Of a stretch of DNA of 62,491 nt, positions 41,417 through 53,945 are shown one piece after another. The first letter of the stretch is position 1. Each line of letters starts with the position of its first letter. The stretch covers positions 1 to 62,491 of the forward strand of contig DTUF01000004.1 of NCBI GenBank assembly GCA_012964335.1. The letters run 5' to 3'. This stretch comes from Candidatus Poseidoniales archaeon (GTDB lineage Archaea > Thermoplasmatota > Poseidoniia > Poseidoniales > Thalassarchaeaceae). The position numbers and the translations under genes are program-made. A model generated the notes under the pieces. The model did no database searches. It was not told where the DNA came from and worked only from the letters and a program-made list of their open reading frames with translations.

Positions 41417-41654
41417 GATAAATCTGTACTATTAAGAACTGATTTTCCATGGTTATTTTTGCCCCTAATTTTTACGATACAGATGCTTAAGAATTGGGAT
41501 GGTGATTGAATCATCTGTTGAAACTAGCCCTAATGTGTGTATGAACTGTGCTCCAACTGTATTAAGAGGCAAGAGATATGGTTAGTATATAGGTTCAAGT
41601 ATGCTTATGCAAGGTCAATCAAAGTTCAGCGCGGTTTTAAGACTCCAAAGCAAG

Positions 41655-44600
41655 ATGAGGATGAAGGCTTTATTTCTAGTCTCGCTGATGATATTCACAT
41701 CGTTAGCGGCGTTGGAATTTGCATCATGGGAAGCAGCTGCAACTACCGACCAAGATGGGGATGGGTTAACCTGTGGTATGGAGTTTTTACTACAGACTCA
41801 ATGTCAAGATTGGGATTCTGACAATGATGGTTTACCCGATGGCTGGGAATGGAAGTATGGATTGAACCCAAATGATGGTTCTTCACTTTCAAGCAATGGT
41901 GCTTCAGGTGACCCCGATGGTGATTCAATGTCTAACCTCCAAGAGTACACTTACCTAACTCCACTCGGATGGGACTCTGCAAACACTCCAAATATGCTTG
42001 ATAACGGCGTATGGTGGAATGGTACTGTTCCCGTTCGAAACTGGAATGAAGAGGGTGCAATGCAAGTCAATCAACCGGCTTGTGGAGGGCCAGGAAATGA
42101 TGGGAATGGTTCCACAGTAATTCTTTGTGATGAAGATCCGGTAGGTGATATTTGTAATGATGGAATTGACAATGACAAAGATGGCCTTGTTGACCATGCA
42201 GACCCAGATAAGGATGGTGACCAAGTTTGTGGCTCAAACGATGACGATGGTGATGGCCTTTTTGATGAGGACCCTGATGGCTGGGATACCGATGGCGATG
42301 GACTTCCAGATGGTTGGGAAGTTGCAAACAACCTGAATGCAACTAATCCGACAGGCATTGACGGAATGATGGGCGACCCTGATGGCGATGGTTTAGTCAA
42401 CATTCAGGAGTATGTCAACCCCTCGTGGACAACCACAAATAGCGGCACTCCTTACTTCATGTCGGGCAACCCACAGACCGAACAGGCTACTGAGAATGTT
42501 AATCCATGTAACCCTCTATTTGGGTGTTTAGCCCAAACAGCTTCAGTAGACCAAGATACTGATACAGACCCTTGGGATAATGACACAGATAATGATGGAT
42601 TGGAAGATGGATGGGAAGCACTGACAATTCTCACTGACCCAACTTCTGCTGATACAGATGGTGACGGAATTGATGACGGTGTTGAAGCTAATGTCTCAAC
42701 ATACGGAAACCCACCTCAGCACAGCGACCCTCGTGACAACAATACAGACGGCGACCAGTTTGATGATGGAGATGAAGATAAGAATGGCAACGGCAGAGTA
42801 GATGCCAATGAAACGGACCCTACTCGCAGAGAGGATGCAGGGGATTTCGATAATGATGGAATTGATAACTGGATTGAGAATCTATCCTGTTCAATGTGGA
42901 ATGTATACGACACCGACTTTGGAGGTGTTGGCGATGGTGATGAGTCAAATCTATCACACTCAACAGATCCATGTATGTCGTTAATTGATTACAGCACAAC
43001 TCTAGACACTGCTGCACAGGCTGGTGGTTACAATGCAGGACTACAGCGCCTGTATCTTACAGACGCTTCTGGTTTTGACTCAACTCCAATTGATTGGCGA
43101 ACTCTAAATGGGGCTGTTGGCTACTACAATGATTCCAATGGACAATTGACGAGTTTCAGTTATGGTGCAGTTGTAAACAACATCCTATTTGGAGTAGTTA
43201 CTCCTCCACCAGCAAATACTGTTGAAGTGATTTCCAAGAATGGCAGTTGGTGCCACTATGAAGGTGCAAACTCTGGCAGCCTAGGCACAACACACTCTCA
43301 CTGTGATGACGATTACGCAGATAGTGATGGAGACGGATTAGCGGATTGGGAAGAGACCCTTTCAATATGGGGTTGGTTCTCAATTTCTACGCTGTATGAT
43401 TCTGATGGAGATGGTCAAAATGATTTGGATGAAATACTCAATTCAACTGACCCAATGGAACCATGTGATAACACATTAGATACTGATGGAGACTTACTCA
43501 ATAACTACTTTGAGAACACAACTGGTTGTGATTTGATGTTTGTACCAGGCATGGGTGCAGGCAACGGTTCAACTGATGCATATGTTACCGATTATCTTGA
43601 TATTGATACTGATAACGGTGGGGTTATTGATTCACAAGAATATCTAGATGGGACAAATCCCCAGAATGACCCATCTGATGATATGAATCCCGCTGATACT
43701 GATGGCGATGGTATCCCTGATAACATCGAGAATCAAACTGGTACAGACTGGCGGAATCCCGATACCGATGGTGGGGGGATGAGTGATTACGAAGAATGTC
43801 CTCCTCAATTTTGGCAAGATTGTCACCTTAGTCCGCAAAACCCATGGGACCCAACTGACGATATCAACCCTAACGAAGTTGTGTTCTACGCTAACAACAC
43901 TTCTAGCACTGGTAATGGTGTAGATACTAATTTAATTCACCGGTGGAGAGTAAAAACTTATGATTACTACACTGGAGGAGCTTATGGAATAAATACATCA
44001 TTAGTCAGTGAACAGCAATTAACTGCTGGTGAAATTAACACCTATCAGGTTGCCAACAATACTTTTTGGGATTCGACAGAAATGTGGCTAATGGAATTCC
44101 TGCAGCCGATTGAACCCGGTGGCACTTTACCTCAGCCCTCACATACAATCGAATATATGTCATGGTTTGATTCAATGGCAGAATTGAATCAGACAAACCA
44201 CACCCGAGATATCCGTGTGTCAGCAACAGCCGTTGGTGGCTTGATGGTTAGTGTGCCAGAGGTAAACTACACCGATTCCGAACTTCAGGCTGGTGTGGAG
44301 TTCCCAACCCCATACGCAACGGATTTACCAGAATATTTTACCGACTACACATTGAGAGAATCAAATGTCAGTAACATCACATATGGGGTCATTACGGATT
44401 CTGGTGCGGTCTCAGCATGGGATAAGATTCAGGCGATCAAAAATTATCTTTCAGAAGAAGATACCAATGTGACCGATCCGGATTTCAAGTTGAATTTTGA
44501 TGGTTCTGGCGCACCAAATATTGAAGATGTCTCACATTTCATCCTTGACTATTCAAGAGAAGGTTCGTGCTCAGAATATGTGACTACTTTCACCACGATG

Positions 44601-47600
44601 GCGAGGATTGCAGGAATACCTGCGCGCACAGTAACTGGTTACACAGGTGGAGTTTGGCATGGGACTGGTTACATGGTGATGGGCTCAAACTGGAATACTT
44701 GGTCTGAAGTACATCTGCAACAAATCGGGTCAAATTTGGATATGGGGTGGATACCAATTGACCCCTGCCCTCCAGCTGAACAGGTTCAATTCCTCAATGA
44801 AAGTGTAAATCCTCTAACATTCGAGAGGGACCTTTCTTCTGGATTGATTTACATTAATGGTTCCTTACAATTCACCAACAACAGTACGGGTGCTGTTGAT
44901 GCACTTGTGAATGCTTATCTCGTTTCAGCAAATGATACCAATCCTATGAATCCATCAGTTTTGAACGAAGATTCTCGTATTCGTGCTATTTTGACTGACC
45001 AAAATGGTAACTTCTCAATAAATGGGACTCCAGCGATGATGCCTGACCCAGGTTATGCAAAAGTGGTTGTTGAGTCTAGACAAGGGGGTTATGTACCGTA
45101 CTCATACCAAGTATACGCTGTGACTCTGAATATAACTGACGATGTTAATTTCACTTTAACTGGGCCCGAACCAGTCGGCGCTCCGATTATTGGGGCTGGC
45201 ACTACAACTACTATCACTGGCAATATGCTTTGGAATGCCACGCCACAAACTGACCCATCAGTGACGGGAAATTTCACTGTTGAATTGACTTATCCTTCTT
45301 CTGTTTTAAGTGCTAATGTAACCTTGCAAGCACCGGTTTGGACAGATGGTTTCTTTTCCTTCGATCTCAACTTGTCAGACCTTGAATCACAAGGCTTGCG
45401 TCAAGCAACAATCTCCTTTGCAGGTTGGCATGAGGGTAATTTGAACTTAGTCCCATCTCCGGTTTATCACGCACGCCCAGGTACATTGAATTTCACAATG
45501 AATATCTCAGCAGCACCAAATATGAATGCTACAATAGAAGGTCCCGGCGCCAATCATTCGTTGTTAGTAATCAACGAAAATATCTATGTAAATGGTACTG
45601 TGGATACCCGTGGTGCTGCACCTGCACCTATGGATGGGTACATATCCCTCTTATTGCGAAGTAATGGCAGTAATACTAGTTACACAAATATTACAACTTG
45701 GGTAGTAACCAACGGAGTTTACAACATTACTTGGAGAATGAATGGTAGTGATGTACCGATTGGGCCAGGTTATCTAGATGTCCAATTATTATTTGGGCAA
45801 GGTATTCCTGGCGCTTCTGACCAAGATGAATTCGTAGGATATGGTTTACGTAGTGAAGTTACAATGAGTTTCAATCTCGGCTCAATAGAGCGCGGTCAAA
45901 TGGCATCGGTGATGGTATCATTAGCTGACCATACAGGTATGGCTACTCTTCCATTCAATGGCACTTATCTCATGACATTTGATGGGACGCTTGTCAATAC
46001 TTCAGTTGACCCTGAGGGTGACTGGATTACTAGCGAATTTACACCCTCTGGGACTCTCGCAGCAGGTGACTATTGGTGGAATATTTCCTACGATGGATAC
46101 CTAGGTGGGAACGCAGGTAGCGAATGGTTCAAGCCAGCAAATGCTAGTGGCCTTCTCCTTGTTACTGGAACTGCTACATTATCCATCAATCTTGCTCAAG
46201 AGTGGACTCACTTAGGAGGTACTACGGTAATTTCAGGGACTCTTACGGATGATGTGCTTGGTACACCAATTCTATGGCATACCGCAGATGTACAGTTTTC
46301 AATTGCCTTGCCAGGGACTGGTCCAAATGGGCCGAATGGGGAACCTCCACTTCCAATATTCATTCCTTTAGGTAGTGGATTGTCCAACCAGACCAATGGA
46401 AATTATTCCGTTGTGGTTACTTTACCAACTGACCTAGCATCAGCAGCTCATAACCTCACTACAATACTTGATTTTGATACCTATGCTGGACCTCGTGGTG
46501 CATACTACTTCATGTACACTCCACCAGCAGCATTGATTGGACTTGAATCCGAGTTGGTGCTAAGGAGCAACATTACAACGGTGATAGTTGAAGCAGGAAA
46601 TACAATTCCTTTCAACGTCACAGTTACTGATGTGGGCGATGGTTCTGCCGTAGTTGGAGAAACAGTCAATTTCACATGGGATTGGGGCGGCACAAACACT
46701 TCGATTGGACAAGTCGTCTCAGGTGCAAATGGTGTGACGATTCTGAATTGGGTCGTGCCACCAACAATGGACCCTGGCTATTACGATGTGAGAATCTGGA
46801 TGGCTAACGATACCTCCGACCCTCTTTCATCTGGATCTGCACGATGGTGGGGCAATGAAACTTTCATGAATATCACCGTACAGGTACCGTCTGATGTTGT
46901 GATATCGTCTGTGCCACTAAATGTGACAGCAGGAACTAGCTTCCAATTAGTGGGCACAGTCAATGATGGCAACGACGTATCCCGGCCGTTCAACGGACCG
47001 GTTGGAATTGAAGTCTTCTTCTTAGGCGACCCATCAGAAACGTTGGTTGCAAGTTATATTACTGCCAACAACGGTTCATTCAACTTATCAGTTCCAACTG
47101 ATCCAAATAATGATGGTATCACAAATGGAAACAAGACTCTTGTGGTTTCAGTACTTGATGGCAGTAATCCATTCTACCTTACAGGCTCAGCAAGTTCAGG
47201 GATGCTGATTATTGGCGTTACTGATTTCGAACAACAAACCCCACTCATCCCAATAGTTGTTACTCGTGGTGAGAATGTTAGTTTCGGCGCAGTACTAGTC
47301 GAAGCATCTGACAATTATCGGCTCATTACTAACACTACAGTTGCGGCACAATTCCACGATACTTGGATACCAGATTCAATGACAGACAGTAATGCTACTG
47401 CATCGTGGACTTACTCCGTGCCAAATACCCAACCTCTTGGACAGATTACAGTGACAATTTACTATAATGCAACAGGGATTTGGGAAATGCATCCGACAAC
47501 TCATCAAATCGGCACAATTAGTGTGCGTTCAATTACCGTACTTGTTGTGGATAACATTAGCGCAAACCCACTTTCAGGTGCTGTATTTGATGTCACAGGA

Positions 47601-50555
47601 AGCCTAGTTTCTGACAACGGCTCAGGAATCATTGCTAGGAGTGGCGCTGGCCTTCTTCCACAAGTGCAGATTAGTATTGATGGTTATACCAATAATTTCC
47701 AGGTCTCTAATGCGATAGCACAACCAAACGGAACATGGACAGCAGTCATTACTTTGGATACAGACTTCCCACGTGGAACACATCTATTGGCTGCAAGTTA
47801 TACTCCAACTGTAAATTACTATCTCAGTTCAAGCGGTAACAATACCTTTGATAGCCGAGGATATTCTGTAATCACTATATTGACGCCAGAGAATCTTGAC
47901 CCTGATTACAGAACAGTGCGTGGAGATAACGTAAGCATTCAGGTGATGTTGCAAGACAACACCTTGGCAGTAATCCCGAATGCAACGATTACTATTGAAT
48001 TCCCTACTCTAAATATTTCAACAACAGTTGTTACAGATATCAACGGAACTGCATGGGCTCTACTCAATGTGCCAGACAACATCGCACCAGGTCCGCTTTC
48101 AATTAATGCCAGTTATCTTGGCATGGCTGGAACTACAGGGGTTCTTGGTGATGAAGATACGACACTCCTCATTATATTAGCACCAACCGTGATTACCATT
48201 GATTCTGTAGAAGGAAATTTCATCGCAGGTGATGTGATTTGGGTAAATGGGACTCTACTTGATGAACATGGAAACTTGTTACAAACTGGAGGGGTGCCAG
48301 CAGCCAGTATTTTGCATCTATCAGTTGATGGTAACGATTCAGGAGCATTCATTGAGTCGAATGCATCTACTGGGACTTACAGTCTGATGTACACCATGCC
48401 TAGCGAAACAGCGGCTGGTAGCCACCTAGTGACGATTTTCTTCAGGGGTGGATTCATGTGGGTTGATCCAATAGGTCAAGGCGATTCAACAAACCCCGAG
48501 TATTACCTCAATTCATCAGCTGAACAGTGGGTAAACATCAGCGTTCCAACCTACATCGTTCTGCTAGGTGGCGGAGGCGATGTAGACAGAGAAGGCCTCC
48601 TCATCATTGATGGAACTCTGTTTGATATTGTTGACAACAGATTAGCAAACGAATCCCTAGAAGTTTGGTTTGACAATACTTGGCTTACAAATGTTACAAC
48701 AGACAGTGAAGGTAACTTCCAAGTTTACTACCCTGTCCCAGCGGATTCACCTCTCGGAGCACAGATGATGGAGATGAGATTTACGGGCTCAACCTTCTAC
48801 TTACCTTCAGAAGCGAACACCTCATGGAATGTGTACAGCGCAGTCAATGTGGCTTTGATTCTCCCAACAGAGATAGCTATCAATGACAATCTTACGATTC
48901 AAGGAACGGTAAGGGATAATCTCCCTGAAGGGTGGCTCCTAAACCACTCACTTGAGGTACGTTTCAACGGTACGCTCCTTGGTACAGTGTACTCCGACTC
49001 TGATGGGGTTTGGATTATTGCGTGGACAATCCCTAACAACATTGGGCTTGGTTCGCACCCAGTAGAAATCTATGCTCCAGCCCAAGGTTGGTATCGTGAA
49101 GCAAGTGCGAATGGTACAATTTGGGTTGCTCATCATTCAGACTTATTGTTGAATAGTGAGGACAACGGTGACGCTACGCGCGGTACCTTCTGGAATGTAT
49201 CCGGACGCTTGTATGATTCCGATGCAATTGGTTTGCCAGGGATTTCAGGGCGAAGTGTTGACATTTTGCTTGATGGAGTATTTGTTGACACTGTAACAAC
49301 TGATTCATTTGGTGAATTTGAACTATTAGTTCCAGTTAGTATGGTTTCAGCACGTGGTGAGCACACACTTTCAGCACACTATTCAGGCGAGGCATCATGG
49401 CTGTCAACTAATTCAACAACAACTTTGACTACTTGGGCTGATATTGATTGGCAATTGGTTGAAAATGAGAACATCATCGTCCGTTCTTCTTCGTCTCATC
49501 CAATAATCATTGAAGGAAGAATCCTTGAGGTTGGAGGAAGTGGGAATCCAGTAGAAATGCTCGACCTTATTCTCTATTGGAATCAGAGTGACCTTGGTAT
49601 TTCTGAGCAAGTGGTATGGATGGGTGACGGTAGTTTCAGTATCCAGTTAACTGCTCCACAATATATGACAGCAGGTGAAATCATTTTGACTCTAAGAGCC
49701 ATGGATAATACCTCAAGAAACTTCAATGGTGATCAAATCAATACATCAATCTTCGTGGTCATTCCTGTTGACTTTGAGACTGGTGTGGAGATAGTACCCT
49801 ACAATGGTGACAGAGTAATCGCGTGGGTCAAGGGAACAGCTAAGGACACACAACTCCCAGCCAGTGATATTGCAGTAACAGCCGTTCTGTACAATGATTC
49901 ACATGGTCTTAGTAGGACTTTAACTGGGCGCACAGGAGATAACGGTTCGTTCTGGTTTGAGTTTGCCTCAGTACCACCAATGCCACCTTACGGAGATGGT
50001 TCAACCTACGGTTCACTTTACATACAAATCAACTCAACTGATGAAAAAGTTGCTGAAGATGATAGAGAGCGTCTTGAAACTACTATGGAAGTAATCGTGT
50101 TATCAGCGGGAACCATTGAAGATGGAATTAGTAACTGGCTGTATGGAGGATTAATTGCAGGAGTTCTTGGCGCAGTTGCTTTCGTAGTTTATTGGCGCCG
50201 TCGCAAGCAATCTGCTATGTCTGAATTAGCAGATGTATTCGCTTACACAGCAGAACTATTGGCTGCAGGAGATGAAACTAGAGAGGCTATTTTCAACTGT
50301 TATGAAAGCCTCTGTGCAATTCTGATGCGACACCGCTTCCTACGACGTGACTTTGAGACAGTCCGTGAATTCGAGATGGCTATTCGTAAGGCATTGCCAA
50401 TCAATGAGGAAGCTTTGGTTGCTCTTGACAGTGTATTCGAAGAGGCAAGGTACTCCCGACACGAAATGGGTGAGGCTCACAAGAGTCAGGCTCAGGACGC
50501 ACTTGGCCGAGTACTCGGCCAAATTGACGAACTTGCAGAAGTACCACTTCGCTGA
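41655..50555 (+). CDS. Giant surface protein with transglutaminase-like and DUF4129-like domains
   Basis: From the ATG at 41655 the product has about 2,966 residues (the frame opens 18 codons earlier). A signal peptide is followed by about 700 residues dominated by thrombospondin-type-3-like calcium motifs (DxDxDG). A transglutaminase-like domain has Cys972 in GSCSEYVTTF, His1020 in SEVHLQQ and Asp1036 in PIDPCPP. Some 1,700 residues of repeated Ig/carboxypeptidase-regulatory-like beta domains follow. One helix (2828-2846) ends in RRRK, and the cytoplasmic end (about 2850-2966) resembles DUF4129 (ETVREFEMAIRKAL; ARYSRHEMG). It probably binds or processes protein at the surface. Confidence 0.85.
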   Translation: MRMKALFLVSLMIFTSLAALEFASWEAAATTDQDGDGLTCGMEFLLQTQCQDWDSDNDGLPDGWEWKYGLNPNDGSSLSSNGASGDPDGDSMSNLQEYTYLTPLGWDSANTPNMLDNGVWWNGTVPVRNWNEEGAMQVNQPACGGPGNDGNGSTVILCDEDPVGDICNDGIDNDKDGLVDHADPDKDGDQVCGSNDDDGDGLFDEDPDGWDTDGDGLPDGWEVANNLNATNPTGIDGMMGDPDGDGLVNIQEYVNPSWTTTNSGTPYFMSGNPQTEQATENVNPCNPLFGCLAQTASVDQDTDTDPWDNDTDNDGLEDGWEALTILTDPTSADTDGDGIDDGVEANVSTYGNPPQHSDPRDNNTDGDQFDDGDEDKNGNGRVDANETDPTRREDAGDFDNDGIDNWIENLSCSMWNVYDTDFGGVGDGDESNLSHSTDPCMSLIDYSTTLDTAAQAGGYNAGLQRLYLTDASGFDSTPIDWRTLNGAVGYYNDSNGQLTSFSYGAVVNNILFGVVTPPPANTVEVISKNGSWCHYEGANSGSLGTTHSHCDDDYADSDGDGLADWEETLSIWGWFSISTLYDSDGDGQNDLDEILNSTDPMEPCDNTLDTDGDLLNNYFENTTGCDLMFVPGMGAGNGSTDAYVTDYLDIDTDNGGVIDSQEYLDGTNPQNDPSDDMNPADTDGDGIPDNIENQTGTDWRNPDTDGGGMSDYEECPPQFWQDCHLSPQNPWDPTDDINPNEVVFYANNTSSTGNGVDTNLIHRWRVKTYDYYTGGAYGINTSLVSEQQLTAGEINTYQVANNTFWDSTEMWLMEFLQPIEPGGTLPQPSHTIEYMSWFDSMAELNQTNHTRDIRVSATAVGGLMVSVPEVNYTDSELQAGVEFPTPYATDLPEYFTDYTLRESNVSNITYGVITDSGAVSAWDKIQAIKNYLSEEDTNVTDPDFKLNFDGSGAPNIEDVSHFILDYSREGSCSEYVTTFTTMARIAGIPARTVTGYTGGVWHGTGYMVMGSNWNTWSEVHLQQIGSNLDMGWIPIDPCPPAEQVQFLNESVNPLTFERDLSSGLIYINGSLQFTNNSTGAVDALVNAYLVSANDTNPMNPSVLNEDSRIRAILTDQNGNFSINGTPAMMPDPGYAKVVVESRQGGYVPYSYQVYAVTLNITDDVNFTLTGPEPVGAPIIGAGTTTTITGNMLWNATPQTDPSVTGNFTVELTYPSSVLSANVTLQAPVWTDGFFSFDLNLSDLESQGLRQATISFAGWHEGNLNLVPSPVYHARPGTLNFTMNISAAPNMNATIEGPGANHSLLVINENIYVNGTVDTRGAAPAPMDGYISLLLRSNGSNTSYTNITTWVVTNGVYNITWRMNGSDVPIGPGYLDVQLLFGQGIPGASDQDEFVGYGLRSEVTMSFNLGSIERGQMASVMVSLADHTGMATLPFNGTYLMTFDGTLVNTSVDPEGDWITSEFTPSGTLAAGDYWWNISYDGYLGGNAGSEWFKPANASGLLLVTGTATLSINLAQEWTHLGGTTVISGTLTDDVLGTPILWHTADVQFSIALPGTGPNGPNGEPPLPIFIPLGSGLSNQTNGNYSVVVTLPTDLASAAHNLTTILDFDTYAGPRGAYYFMYTPPAALIGLESELVLRSNITTVIVEAGNTIPFNVTVTDVGDGSAVVGETVNFTWDWGGTNTSIGQVVSGANGVTILNWVVPPTMDPGYYDVRIWMANDTSDPLSSGSARWWGNETFMNITVQVPSDVVISSVPLNVTAGTSFQLVGTVNDGNDVSRPFNGPVGIEVFFLGDPSETLVASYITANNGSFNLSVPTDPNNDGITNGNKTLVVSVLDGSNPFYLTGSASSGMLIIGVTDFEQQTPLIPIVVTRGENVSFGAVLVEASDNYRLITNTTVAAQFHDTWIPDSMTDSNATASWTYSVPNTQPLGQITVTIYYNATGIWEMHPTTHQIGTISVRSITVLVVDNISANPLSGAVFDVTGSLVSDNGSGIIARSGAGLLPQVQISIDGYTNNFQVSNAIAQPNGTWTAVITLDTDFPRGTHLLAASYTPTVNYYLSSSGNNTFDSRGYSVITILTPENLDPDYRTVRGDNVSIQVMLQDNTLAVIPNATITIEFPTLNISTTVVTDINGTAWALLNVPDNIAPGPLSINASYLGMAGTTGVLGDEDTTLLIILAPTVITIDSVEGNFIAGDVIWVNGTLLDEHGNLLQTGGVPAASILHLSVDGNDSGAFIESNASTGTYSLMYTMPSETAAGSHLVTIFFRGGFMWVDPIGQGDSTNPEYYLNSSAEQWVNISVPTYIVLLGGGGDVDREGLLIIDGTLFDIVDNRLANESLEVWFDNTWLTNVTTDSEGNFQVYYPVPADSPLGAQMMEMRFTGSTFYLPSEANTSWNVYSAVNVALILPTEIAINDNLTIQGTVRDNLPEGWLLNHSLEVRFNGTLLGTVYSDSDGVWIIAWTIPNNIGLGSHPVEIYAPAQGWYREASANGTIWVAHHSDLLLNSEDNGDATRGTFWNVSGRLYDSDAIGLPGISGRSVDILLDGVFVDTVTTDSFGEFELLVPVSMVSARGEHTLSAHYSGEASWLSTNSTTTLTTWADIDWQLVENENIIVRSSSSHPIIIEGRILEVGGSGNPVEMLDLILYWNQSDLGISEQVVWMGDGSFSIQLTAPQYMTAGEIILTLRAMDNTSRNFNGDQINTSIFVVIPVDFETGVEIVPYNGDRVIAWVKGTAKDTQLPASDIAVTAVLYNDSHGLSRTLTGRTGDNGSFWFEFASVPPMPPYGDGSTYGSLYIQINSTDEKVAEDDRERLETTMEVIVLSAGTIEDGISNWLYGGLIAGVLGAVAFVVYWRRRKQSAMSELADVFAYTAELLAAGDETREAIFNCYESLCAILMRHRFLRRDFETVREFEMAIRKALPINEEALVALDSVFEEARYSRHEMGEAHKSQAQDALGRVLGQIDELAEVPLR

Positions 50556-51150: not shown

Positions 51151-53202
51151 CTAATCATCTTCGATTGCTGGGTCTGGATGGCGTTTGAAGAAACGTGTTG
51201 CATGGCGGCTTGTTGACTCTTCACTTGATACAGTCAAGATGTTGATGTTGGTTGGAAGTAATCGCTTGAATTGTGGCATCAATAGTCTATCTTCTAACAA
51301 TAAAACAAAGGCGCGGTCACCCATTTTTCTAATCGGTCTCCCCATCGCTTGCATCAGTGAGTTTACAGCAGGTTGTTGTACCGCCCAGCGATATGATTTA
51401 CTGCTCCCGAATCGCTCTTCATAGTAGTCTTTGCGAGCTTTCAGTTCTTCTGATGGCGGTGGAATCTGAAGTCCGATGCAAACCACAGCATCTAACAGAT
51501 TTCGATGATAATCTACGCCTTCTCCTAACTTTGCTGAGAATACCCCTGCAAGCAGGATTTTTTCTCCTGCAGAACGTGCCATGTCCATATCACGTAGGAG
51601 TGAGTCAATGCGCCCTTTTGACCAACCAGATTCCTCTTTCAAGACCCTGCGGCCGTGCCATATCTCGCCGCCAACAATTTCTTCTAACATCGCGTAAGAT
51701 GGGGCGAATACAGCAATATGACCTGGTGCGGCTACTGAAATTGCTCGAATATGTGCGCGAATTTTCTCATTATTTTGTGGTCCTCGCCTTGTATATTTTG
51801 AGGTCACGCCAGTTGCAATCGCTACTGGACGTTTATCGGAAAGGAATGGAGAGGGATACTCCTTGGAAGATATCGGTCTTGTGCTTGGTAGGGACAGAAG
51901 TTCTCCGTACATCTCTGGTGGCGATAGGGTTCCAGACATCAGTAATGCTCCAGCCGCTTGCTCAAACACAGGTCCAGCCACAATTCCTGGGTCAAGTAGA
52001 TGGGTGGTTAGTCGTGGTGCGTCCCCCTTACCATGGGAGAAGATGAACGCCAATGCTCTATTTTCACCCAATCTATCTATCAGTCCGAATAAATCTGAAA
52101 GACGCTCGCTAGCGGTTTCTTTGCCTTCATCTAGGTCTGGATCTAGTTCAACTTCTATTGTGGCCAATGTCTCAGAGATTTGATTTAGGCTGATATTTTT
52201 CCCGCTTATATCACTGGCTAATGCTGATGATAATAGATTTAGCAGGTCTTGATTATCAATTCGAGTCTCTTCTGATTTTTCTTTGTAGAGTGATTGAGTT
52301 TGGGTTCTGAAAAAGCCGGCTAAATCTGCACGAATCCTTTCAATTGCTGCTTTGACGGCTCGCAAATTAGCATAGGTTTCAGGTCTAACATCAAACAAAC
52401 CTTTCCTTTCTTTCTCTTCAAGAGTTTCAATGTGTTCTTCCATTTCAAGGCGAGCTGATAAAACCAATTCATCGTTTATTGTTCTCTGCATTCCTTTGGT
52501 GATTCGGTCAGGAAGGTTGTGCGCTTCATCAACTATGATGATGACTTCATCCAATTTTATCCCCATCGCATCTAGTGATGCTGCCCGCACTCGTTCATGG
52601 AATAAGTGATTGTAGTCACAAACAATAATGTCAGCGCCGATAGCACTTTCACGTGCAACTTTCCACGGACACGTTGATTTGCTTTGACCATTTTCAGTGA
52701 AACTTTTTGAAACTTGAATTAGTTCATTCACATGCAGTGGTTCTTGTAGGACTTTCAACTTTAATCCTTCAACTTCCTGAAGATATGGCCGACAATGCCG
52801 GTTCTTTCTTTTGTCGGCACAGAGGCGAGAAAATATTGAAGAAAATTCCTTGCGAATGTCATCAATACACATTGATTGTTGGCCTACAATATCTACTAAT
52901 TTCACTTTGCTTTGGCCATCTTTGAGGCGTTTGTTGATGCGGCGCACTGTTTCAACAACAATCCGGTGTTGCGCTTGACGCCCAGTAAGAAAGAAGATAG
53001 TTCGTTTTTCATTTGATGAAAAAGAAGCGTCAAGTGCAGCAGAAAGAGCTGCTGCAGTTTTACCAATTCCAGTAGGAGCGCAGGCAAGGTGACTGCCCTT
53101 GTTGACTAGGACATCATACGCTTCAGTAATCATTTCTGCTTGGCCTGGCCGTAATTCTTCATGTGCGAGATAACCGGGTATTCTAGGTTCATCTACCACC
53201 AT
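51151..53202 (-). CDS. XPD/Rad3-like DNA helicase with Fe-S cluster
   Basis: The 683-residue superfamily 2 helicase unwinds DNA in the 5' to 3' direction in its family, with roles in repair. Walker A is APTGIGKT (42-49) and Walker B is the DEAH box (225-228). Four cysteines (112, 128, 137, 178) between motifs Ia and II are placed as in the [4Fe-4S] domain of XPD. The C-terminal half has LMSGTLSPPEMYG and motif VI QAMGRPIRK. An arch domain fits residues 250-380. The domain set is complete. Upstream lies the hairpin-rich intergenic region. Confidence 0.93.
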   Translation of the reverse strand: MVVDEPRIPGYLAHEELRPGQAEMITEAYDVLVNKGSHLACAPTGIGKTAAALSAALDASFSSNEKRTIFFLTGRQAQHRIVVETVRRINKRLKDGQSKVKLVDIVGQQSMCIDDIRKEFSSIFSRLCADKRKNRHCRPYLQEVEGLKLKVLQEPLHVNELIQVSKSFTENGQSKSTCPWKVARESAIGADIIVCDYNHLFHERVRAASLDAMGIKLDEVIIIVDEAHNLPDRITKGMQRTINDELVLSARLEMEEHIETLEEKERKGLFDVRPETYANLRAVKAAIERIRADLAGFFRTQTQSLYKEKSEETRIDNQDLLNLLSSALASDISGKNISLNQISETLATIEVELDPDLDEGKETASERLSDLFGLIDRLGENRALAFIFSHGKGDAPRLTTHLLDPGIVAGPVFEQAAGALLMSGTLSPPEMYGELLSLPSTRPISSKEYPSPFLSDKRPVAIATGVTSKYTRRGPQNNEKIRAHIRAISVAAPGHIAVFAPSYAMLEEIVGGEIWHGRRVLKEESGWSKGRIDSLLRDMDMARSAGEKILLAGVFSAKLGEGVDYHRNLLDAVVCIGLQIPPPSEELKARKDYYEERFGSSKSYRWAVQQPAVNSLMQAMGRPIRKMGDRAFVLLLEDRLLMPQFKRLLPTNINILTVSSEESTSRHATRFFKRHPDPAIEDD

Positions 53203-53516
53203 GAGTTTGACCGGCGATTCGGACGCTCAATAAGGTTGGGTATTTTTCCTGCTTGATGGTATCATAGAGAGCCTATCGGCCCGATTCTATTTGGGGGGCC
53301 CCGTTAGGGGCCGGGGTATAACGAATCAAAGTTCGTCGTGAAGGGGTGTTCCCGCATATGCGGGAACGGGGGTATTATGTGAATTTGCTACTGAAATGAC
53401 CGAGTGACGGGCACGGAGACGTAGATTGAAAATCCCAAGAGTGGGGGCGGGGGGGTTTTCACACCCCCCCTGGTTCTTCTTGGTGTGCATCCCATTGCTC
53501 ACTTTCTCTCACCCTT
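53203..53516. other. Hairpin-rich 314-base intergenic region, candidate structured RNA
   Basis: No convincing protein frame is present. Four hairpins stand in a row: GGCCCC-GTTA-GGGGCC (53297-53312), ACGAA-TCAAAG-TTCGT (53321-53336), GTTCCCGC-ATAT-GCGGGAAC (53348-53367, a perfect 20-base palindrome) and seven Gs and seven Cs around an eight-base loop (53449-53470). The first and third are each followed by a similar GGGGTAT element (CGGGGTATAACG, CGGGGGTATTATG), as if a unit had been duplicated. It separates the starts of the XPD gene and the end of the regulator gene, both on the minus strand. It could be a small RNA, a long leader, or a regulatory site. Confidence 0.5.
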
Positions 53517-53888
53517 TTACTCAGTATGGTCCTCATGAGAACCTCGAAGGTCAATATCCTTCAGGACACTTAGAGCATCTGTAACTCTAGTGTCCATTTT
53601 TTCTGTTTGCTGCTCAAGGAGTAGCCCAATTCCAAGTGCCATTGCTGAACTTGCATCCATTTCAAGCATCTGTTCTAGGATTTTCAATTGTTGTGATACG
53701 CCTTCACTGATTCTGATAGTCTGTCGGCGGCCAACATTTCCTGTTGCAGTCTCGTCTAACAATTTGTGAAGTCCACGGCGTAAGACATCGCTACGGTTGC
53801 GCATGCCGTCAAATCCCACACGGCGCTCAATTTCGAAGATTTCCTCTTCGGTGAGGCGCACTGAAACCATCTGACTTGGACTGCCCAT
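53517..53888 (-). CDS. Ribbon-helix-helix (CopG-like) transcription regulator
   Basis: The 123-residue protein begins with a strand and two helices typical of ribbon-helix-helix DNA-binding proteins: MVSVRLTEEEIFEIERRV, then MRNRSDVLRRGLHKLL. A second half, IRISEGVSQQLKILEQMLEMD, looks like a related strand-helix unit or a dimer/effector region and ends in a polar helix. The ATG at 53888 has GAGAGGA upstream; an internal Met at residue 7 is possible. The upstream region carries several copies of a TGTAATACA-like motif, suggesting autoregulation. No toxin partner is visible, so it is probably a stand-alone regulator. Confidence 0.8.
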   Translation of the reverse strand: MGSPSQMVSVRLTEEEIFEIERRVGFDGMRNRSDVLRRGLHKLLDETATGNVGRRQTIRISEGVSQQLKILEQMLEMDASSAMALGIGLLLEQQTEKMDTRVTDALSVLKDIDLRGSHEDHTE

Positions 53889-53945
53889 CTGTTCCTCTCC
53901 GACCTATCCACGGTGGGGGGGGGTTTATTATCCTGTCTTACGAAG

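Follow-up and report, generated by a model that had tools for sequence, protein, structure and literature searches.

A conserved small-protein gene with putative cis-acting mRNA hairpins between regulator-type and helicase genes of Candidatus Thalassarchaeaceae

In the stretch of Candidatus Poseidoniales DNA analysed here (62,491 nucleotides, referred to as the window), the interval that separates a ribbon-helix-helix (RHH) type regulator gene from an XPD/DinG-type helicase gene, each of them encoded by the minus strand, is best explained as holding a gene for a small protein, with cis-acting RNA hairpins in its mRNA (Table 1). A hairpin within the coding region, termed hpN, is proposed to act in early translation, and a 3' hairpin is proposed to act at the end of the mRNA. 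This reading, drawn from comparisons of sequences, is favoured with moderate confidence. A preliminary description of the same DNA had pointed to a cluster of four hairpins, had stated that no protein frame explained it and had proposed an undescribed structured RNA or a protein-binding locus.

Table 1. Features of the hairpin interval and its flanking genes, with positions in the window
Feature	Position	Strand	Remarks
XPD/Rad3-DinG type helicase gene	51151..53202	-	Pfam DEAD_2 and Helicase_C_2; downstream neighbour of the small ORF
Short conserved hairpin, GGCC-GATA-GGCT	53270..53281	-	97.8% of cells paired; AGCC-GATA-GGCT in relatives
hp3, GGCCCC-TAAC-GGGGCC	53297..53312	-	100% paired; past the stop codon, C tracts on both flanks
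hp2, GACGAA-CTTTGA-TTCGTT	53320..53337	-	88.9% of cells paired; loop holds the stop codon TGA (53326-53328)
hp1, 20-base palindrome	53348..53367	-	97.2% of cells paired; near the 3' end of the ORF, between ACCCCC and ACCCC
hpN, GGGGGGGT-GTGAAA-ACCCCCCC	53449..53470	-	G7/C7; codons 11-18; first base at +33 from the start codon
Small protein-coding ORF, 58 aa, GTG start, MSNGMHTKKNQGGCENPPAPTLGIFNLRLRARHSVISVANSHNTPVPAYAGTPLHDEL	53326..53502	-	ORF listing, family-wide orthologues, dN/dS, other frames closed
Conserved coding segment AAT GGG ATG CAC	53485..53496	-	codons GGG and CAC invariant
Shine-Dalgarno (SD)-like GGGTGAG	53508..53514	-	5 nt ahead of the GTG start
RHH type regulator gene	53517..53888	-	adjoins the small ORF upstream throughout the family

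The small ORF and its neighbours

Because it encodes only 58 residues, the small ORF fell below the 60-residue limit of the first ORF list and was absent from it, and the statement that no protein frame explains the hairpins proved wrong. The ORF spans most of the hairpin interval and overlaps three of the four hairpins, one of them across the stop codon. Over the listed pairs of orthologues, dN/dS ranged from 0.06 to 0.49 (0.17 for the window and its nearest relative), while the differences at codon positions 1, 2 and 3, counted over 88 orthologue pairs, numbered 805, 596 and 1928, respectively, such that 1928 of 3329 fell at the third position. The alternative frames are closed, with stops being found in 35 to 45 of 46 sequences per frame. 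The start codon swaps between ATG, GTG and TTG at a constant SD distance, a GGTGAG-type motif lying 9-11 nt 5' of the start in all 46 orthologues. Upstream of hpN, the segment [GA]AT GGG ATG CAC was present in 56 of 56 distinct loci, with zero synonymous changes. As judged by dN/dS, the codon positions of the differences, the open frame and the start codons, the ORF is a protein-coding gene under purifying, protein-level selection.

Searches of the small protein against Pfam, NCBIfam and PHROGs models and against PDB sequences returned no significant match, and structure modelling yielded one helix at low confidence. A phage origin of the locus was sought, with no match being obtained, and a search for literature on the locus found nothing. 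Given its basic residues, it is plausible that the small protein binds RNA.

An order-wide search gave matches in 71 genomes, 66 from the same family and five, with weak scores, from a sister family. Named relatives point to Ca. Thalassarchaeaceae and Ca. Poseidoniaceae, in the order Ca. Poseidoniales, as these two families. Across Ca. Thalassarchaeaceae (MGIIb), orthologues of the small ORF sit behind the RHH-type gene and, in the loci inspected, close behind its stop codon in an operon-like manner; the small gene is probably co-transcribed with this upstream gene. In Poseidoniaceae loci, a diverged ORF found at the same place shares GM and a GL..L..RARLA segment. A same-genus orthologue (L012 and L044, from genome G001) contains a 24-codon in-frame insertion that repeats an LR.RA-like segment. 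In another relative (G004), contigs C74 and C86 (L043 and L046) both end within the hairpin region, so that such loci may drop out of assemblies.

The product of the RHH-type gene has a conserved N-terminus, with the pattern SLR..E....L..RVG.DG.RNRSDVIR, and helices predicted at positions 14-24 and 32-46 after an N-terminal segment. It matches the CdrS equivalog model NF058555 weakly (16.4 bits, E 0.0067, relative to a model cut-off of 100 bits), gives weak matches to phage repressors and, in Pfam at 1e-3, no match. A run of nine G residues is found upstream of this gene (53915-53923, C9 on its coding strand), with a second such run at 2814-2822 of the window.

The helicase gene scores under the cut-off of the NCBIfam rad3 model. 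Directly 5' of its start, at 53219-53239 on the minus strand, lies CCAACCTTATTGAGCGTCCGA. Variants of CCAATCTTCTTGG, together with their surroundings, are found 5' of the helicase gene in the family regardless of which gene precedes it and, in the genus, perfect or one-mismatch copies of this type of motif occur only there. The CCAATCTTCTTGG/CCAACCTTATTGAGCGTCCGA motif is a candidate helicase promoter or operator. Also beside the helicase gene, the plus strand at 41601-50555 encodes a predicted repeat-rich protein of 2984 residues, with repeats that are Asp-rich by eye, that is probably secreted or found at the cell surface.

Pairing on the coding strand and linkage to the small gene

The four-stem cluster of the preliminary description is real, comprising the perfect stems GGCCCC/GGGGCC (hp3), AACGAA/TTCGTC (hp2), GTTCCCGCATATGCGGGAAC (hp1) and GGGGGGGT/ACCCCCCC (hpN). 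Three non-overlapping perfect stems of at least 6 bp are found in 211 bases; in 500 dinucleotide shuffles, the total stem length was never matched, and the stem count was matched four times. Folding relative to shuffles gave a z of -3.8 for minus-strand RNA and an unremarkable -1.7 for plus-strand RNA. The duplication of GGGGTAT was likewise confirmed, appearing on the minus strand as ATACCCC ahead of two hairpins, each followed by a C tract (ATACCCC-hairpin-CCCC), in two copies here and nowhere else in the window.

When hpN, hp1-hp3 and the fifth short stem were considered together, 96.2% of cells were paired, and eight pairs showed changes on both sides (genera g1 and g2). In hp1, such changes were seen at three of eight pairs, across two genera, with its codons specifying AYA, TYV or EYS and the stem being kept in each case. 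In hp3, two of five pairs changed on both sides, while hp2, the weakest hairpin of the set, showed such changes at one pair.

In the genus of the window, the ORF ends within the series formed by hp1, hp2 and hp3, which follow one another with C tracts in between. In most other genera, the ORF terminates earlier and a single hairpin, CACACC-GYCYCGYNC-loop-GNRCGRGRC-ACC, follows the stop codon. This post-stop hairpin was 97.9% paired, with both-side changes at six of nine pairs and with G.U pairs on the coding strand in 7 and 4 of 26 cases at two of the pairs. Based on architecture, hp1 and hp3 would appear to be homologous to this hairpin.

Since the G.U pairs occur on the minus strand and the plus-strand fold is weaker, the minus strand was taken to be the RNA strand. 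Pairing in relatives, on which the preliminary description had made its own reading hinge, is strongly conserved, with compensatory changes, on that strand. These comparisons establish that base pairing has been selected and hence that the hairpins are maintained as RNA on the coding strand. The possibility that the stems instead correspond to a DNA operator or another dyad bound by protein, such as one through which the neighbouring RHH protein would regulate its own gene, was also considered. Although a perfect 20-base palindrome and an adjacent RHH gene are what such a site would offer, the stems are located in and after the ORF, away from the start of the operon, and vary in sequence while pairing holds, whereas a DNA site would conserve sequence; their many G.U pairs, moreover, are found on the coding strand only and would be mismatches in a DNA dyad. 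An operator is, therefore, the least probable of the readings weighed here, and the protein-binding locus that had been proposed, understood as DNA, is disfavoured.

It had been noted earlier that the locus does not fit RNase P, SRP or 5S RNA, and this was correct, with Rfam 15 yielding no match at gathering scores, only chance-level matches when lax filters were used and none in three orthologous loci. RNase P RNA was found on another contig (C22:146202-146499). As such, the proposal of an undescribed structured RNA stands for the individual elements, which show conserved pairing and belong to no Rfam family, while there is no evidence for a free-standing RNA. The presence of several conserved hairpins in one stretch, covariation on the sense strand and the lack of an Rfam family could all reflect a free-standing structured non-coding RNA, or one with a dual function that encodes the small protein as well. 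Such an RNA is nonetheless unlikely, given that the ORF is under protein selection and lies operon-like close behind the RHH stop codon, and that no single overall fold is conserved, hpN being family-wide while the 3' hairpins come and go.

A covariance model of the post-stop hairpin gave one strong match per genome, beside the small ORF wherever the position of the ORF was known, and a general 3'-end signal was rejected on this basis. A repeat or mobile element was ruled out, as the hairpin region is present in a single copy in its own genome. In about 760 kb, comprising stretches of two genomes, no similar C-flanked hairpin was found elsewhere. The ORF and hairpin are followed by a PEP-synthase-like gene (assigned by eye) in g6, in g9 and in part of the g4 and g11 species. 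Six genomes from g4, g6 and g9 were checked, and there the helicase gene lies some 3 kb downstream. As the hairpins of g6 and g9 remain with the ORF, the idea that they form part of the helicase gene was rejected. Indeed, with the hairpin remaining with the ORF and the CCAATCTTCTTGG motif remaining with the helicase gene, comparison of these loci demonstrates that the hairpins belong to the small gene and not to the helicase gene. The 3' hairpin is absent in g8, g10 and part of g5 and is thus not essential to the small gene.

The position of the hairpin immediately past the stop codon in most genera raises the alternative of a transcription terminator or attenuator that sets the helicase gene apart from the RHH-ORF unit, with the 3' hairpin ending or gating transcription. 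The absence of the hairpin from g8 and g10, where the helicase gene lies within a few tens of bases of the ORF, would be expected in this case if those genomes have no separate transcript end at that point. Still, the coding strand lacks a U tract, the sole terminator-like match being on the plus strand, no other genes are followed by the hairpin, which has one strong copy per genome, and hpN would be left unexplained. A terminator or attenuator is accordingly deemed improbable, and the 3' hairpin is better viewed as a cis-acting element of the small gene.

The hairpin inside the coding region

In all 46 orthologues scored, hpN forms a stem of 8-13 bp. Its first base lies at +28 to +36 from the start codon (mean 30.8, sd 1.8; 46 orthologues), with the distance from the GMH motif being looser (9 to 23, sd 3.0). 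In genus g3, additional codons ahead of GMH are offset by a smaller number behind it, so that the position of hpN relative to the start codon is unchanged, while in genus g8 another variant of hpN, GCGGGAGGGCC/GGCCCTCTCGC, is also found at +31. Among the orthologues compared, the spacing of hpN from the start codon is, as such, nearly fixed. When stretches from two genomes were scored, 3 of 307 ORFs in one and 1 of 254 in the other reached a hairpin score of at least 22 at +20 to +80; the score of hpN in the window is 23.

With the arms aligned by pairing and joined by an artificial spacer, both-side changes were found at six of ten hpN pairs, a signal matched by none of 500 shuffles and abolished upon sliding the partner. 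When synonymous codons were shuffled so as to encode the same protein, the strength of hpN was reached in 0-3 of 100 trials (one row of that table, concerning an unrelated plus-strand ORF, was left out). The best hairpin of each sequence was chosen to supply the hpN arms, which favours high pairing percentages but does not affect the shuffle test in the same way. G.U pairs, on coding-strand RNA only, made up 11 of 21 at one pair. In lineages g5 and g6, GGG to GAG (Gly to Glu) is accompanied by CCC to TCC or an equivalent change (Pro to Ser), such that the base pair is kept.

These findings bear on the possibility that only coding is involved, the stems being by-products of Gly and Pro codons amid runs of G and C. 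The GGG GGG ... CCC CCC codons of hpN do specify conserved residues, which impose part of its G/C richness, and the window abounds in runs of at least five G or C (49 in all). Synonymous shuffles, however, almost never generate the stem, the paired non-synonymous changes alter the protein yet keep the pairing, and the 3' hairpin covaries although it lies outside the coding sequence in most genera, making an origin in codon usage alone highly unlikely and favouring hpN as an RNA element of the small gene's mRNA.

A programmed frameshift site was also considered and rejected, as no consistent slippery sequence was seen by eye. Sequestration of the SD sequence by the 3' arm of hpN was likewise set aside, the arm being complementary to it (CUCACC) in some genera but not in others. 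In Poseidoniaceae, the +31 hairpin is absent. Six loci of that family (L022, L026, L030, L032, L036 and L038) contain another hairpin in the same ORF (CCGTACGG/CCGTACGG, CTGTACAG/CTGTAYGG), some 60-120 nt past the RHH stop codon, with changes that, by eye, are apparently compensatory or create G.U pairs.

Proposed roles and relation to known systems

The mRNA hairpins probably control the translation or stability of their own gene, with the mechanism outlined here being inferred. Together with the invariant GGGATGCAC segment, hpN may determine or modulate early translation of the small protein. The footprint of an initiating ribosome would extend from the start codon to some +15 to +20, so that a stem at about +31 would lie just past it and be encountered only some codons into translation; at that position, hpN alone does not block the initiating ribosome. 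The ligand of hpN or of GGGATGCAC is perhaps the basic small protein itself or another RNA-binding protein, while the 3' hairpin may protect or define the 3' end of the mRNA. Extending this to the whole family, such that an RHH-associated small protein would control its own synthesis through an hpN some 31 nt past the start, under both protein and RNA selection, and a C-flanked 3' hairpin, is offered only tentatively and with more doubt than confidence.

Like archaeal RNase P, SRP and 5S RNA genes, the locus presents GC-rich hairpins in what appeared to be an intergenic region; unlike these, it has no Rfam match. Small RNA-binding proteins, such as those encoded in ribosomal protein operons, can be controlled by autoregulatory structures in their own mRNAs. 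The present case resembles these in that a short gene for a basic protein is carried on an mRNA with a conserved hairpin near the translation start. It differs in that the hairpin is found within the coding region, at about +31, rather than in the leader, in that the ligand is only a candidate and in that the small protein has no match among the library families. Peptide-encoding dual-function small RNAs, such as SgrS/SgrT and RNAIII, likewise combine a small ORF with an overlapping conserved RNA structure, whereas the ORF considered here is second-cistron-like, behind the RHH gene. As for that gene, CdrS is an RHH regulator of haloarchaeal cell division (PMC7439475), and the upstream gene described here similarly specifies a short archaeal protein whose N-terminus is of RHH type, although it scores far under the equivalog cut-off and has the small ORF and a helicase gene as neighbours, and not ftsZ2.

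The locus thus combines ingredients of known kinds, with the combination and the near-fixed spacing being unusual. It adds a small-protein family that is absent from the libraries searched; marine archaea of an abundant order conserve it, in linkage with a regulator gene and, as a rule, with an XPD-like helicase gene. It also provides a clean natural case of an in-coding hairpin whose spacing from the start codon is near-fixed and whose upkeep has in some cases altered the protein, which opens the control of early archaeal translation by mRNA structure to direct testing.
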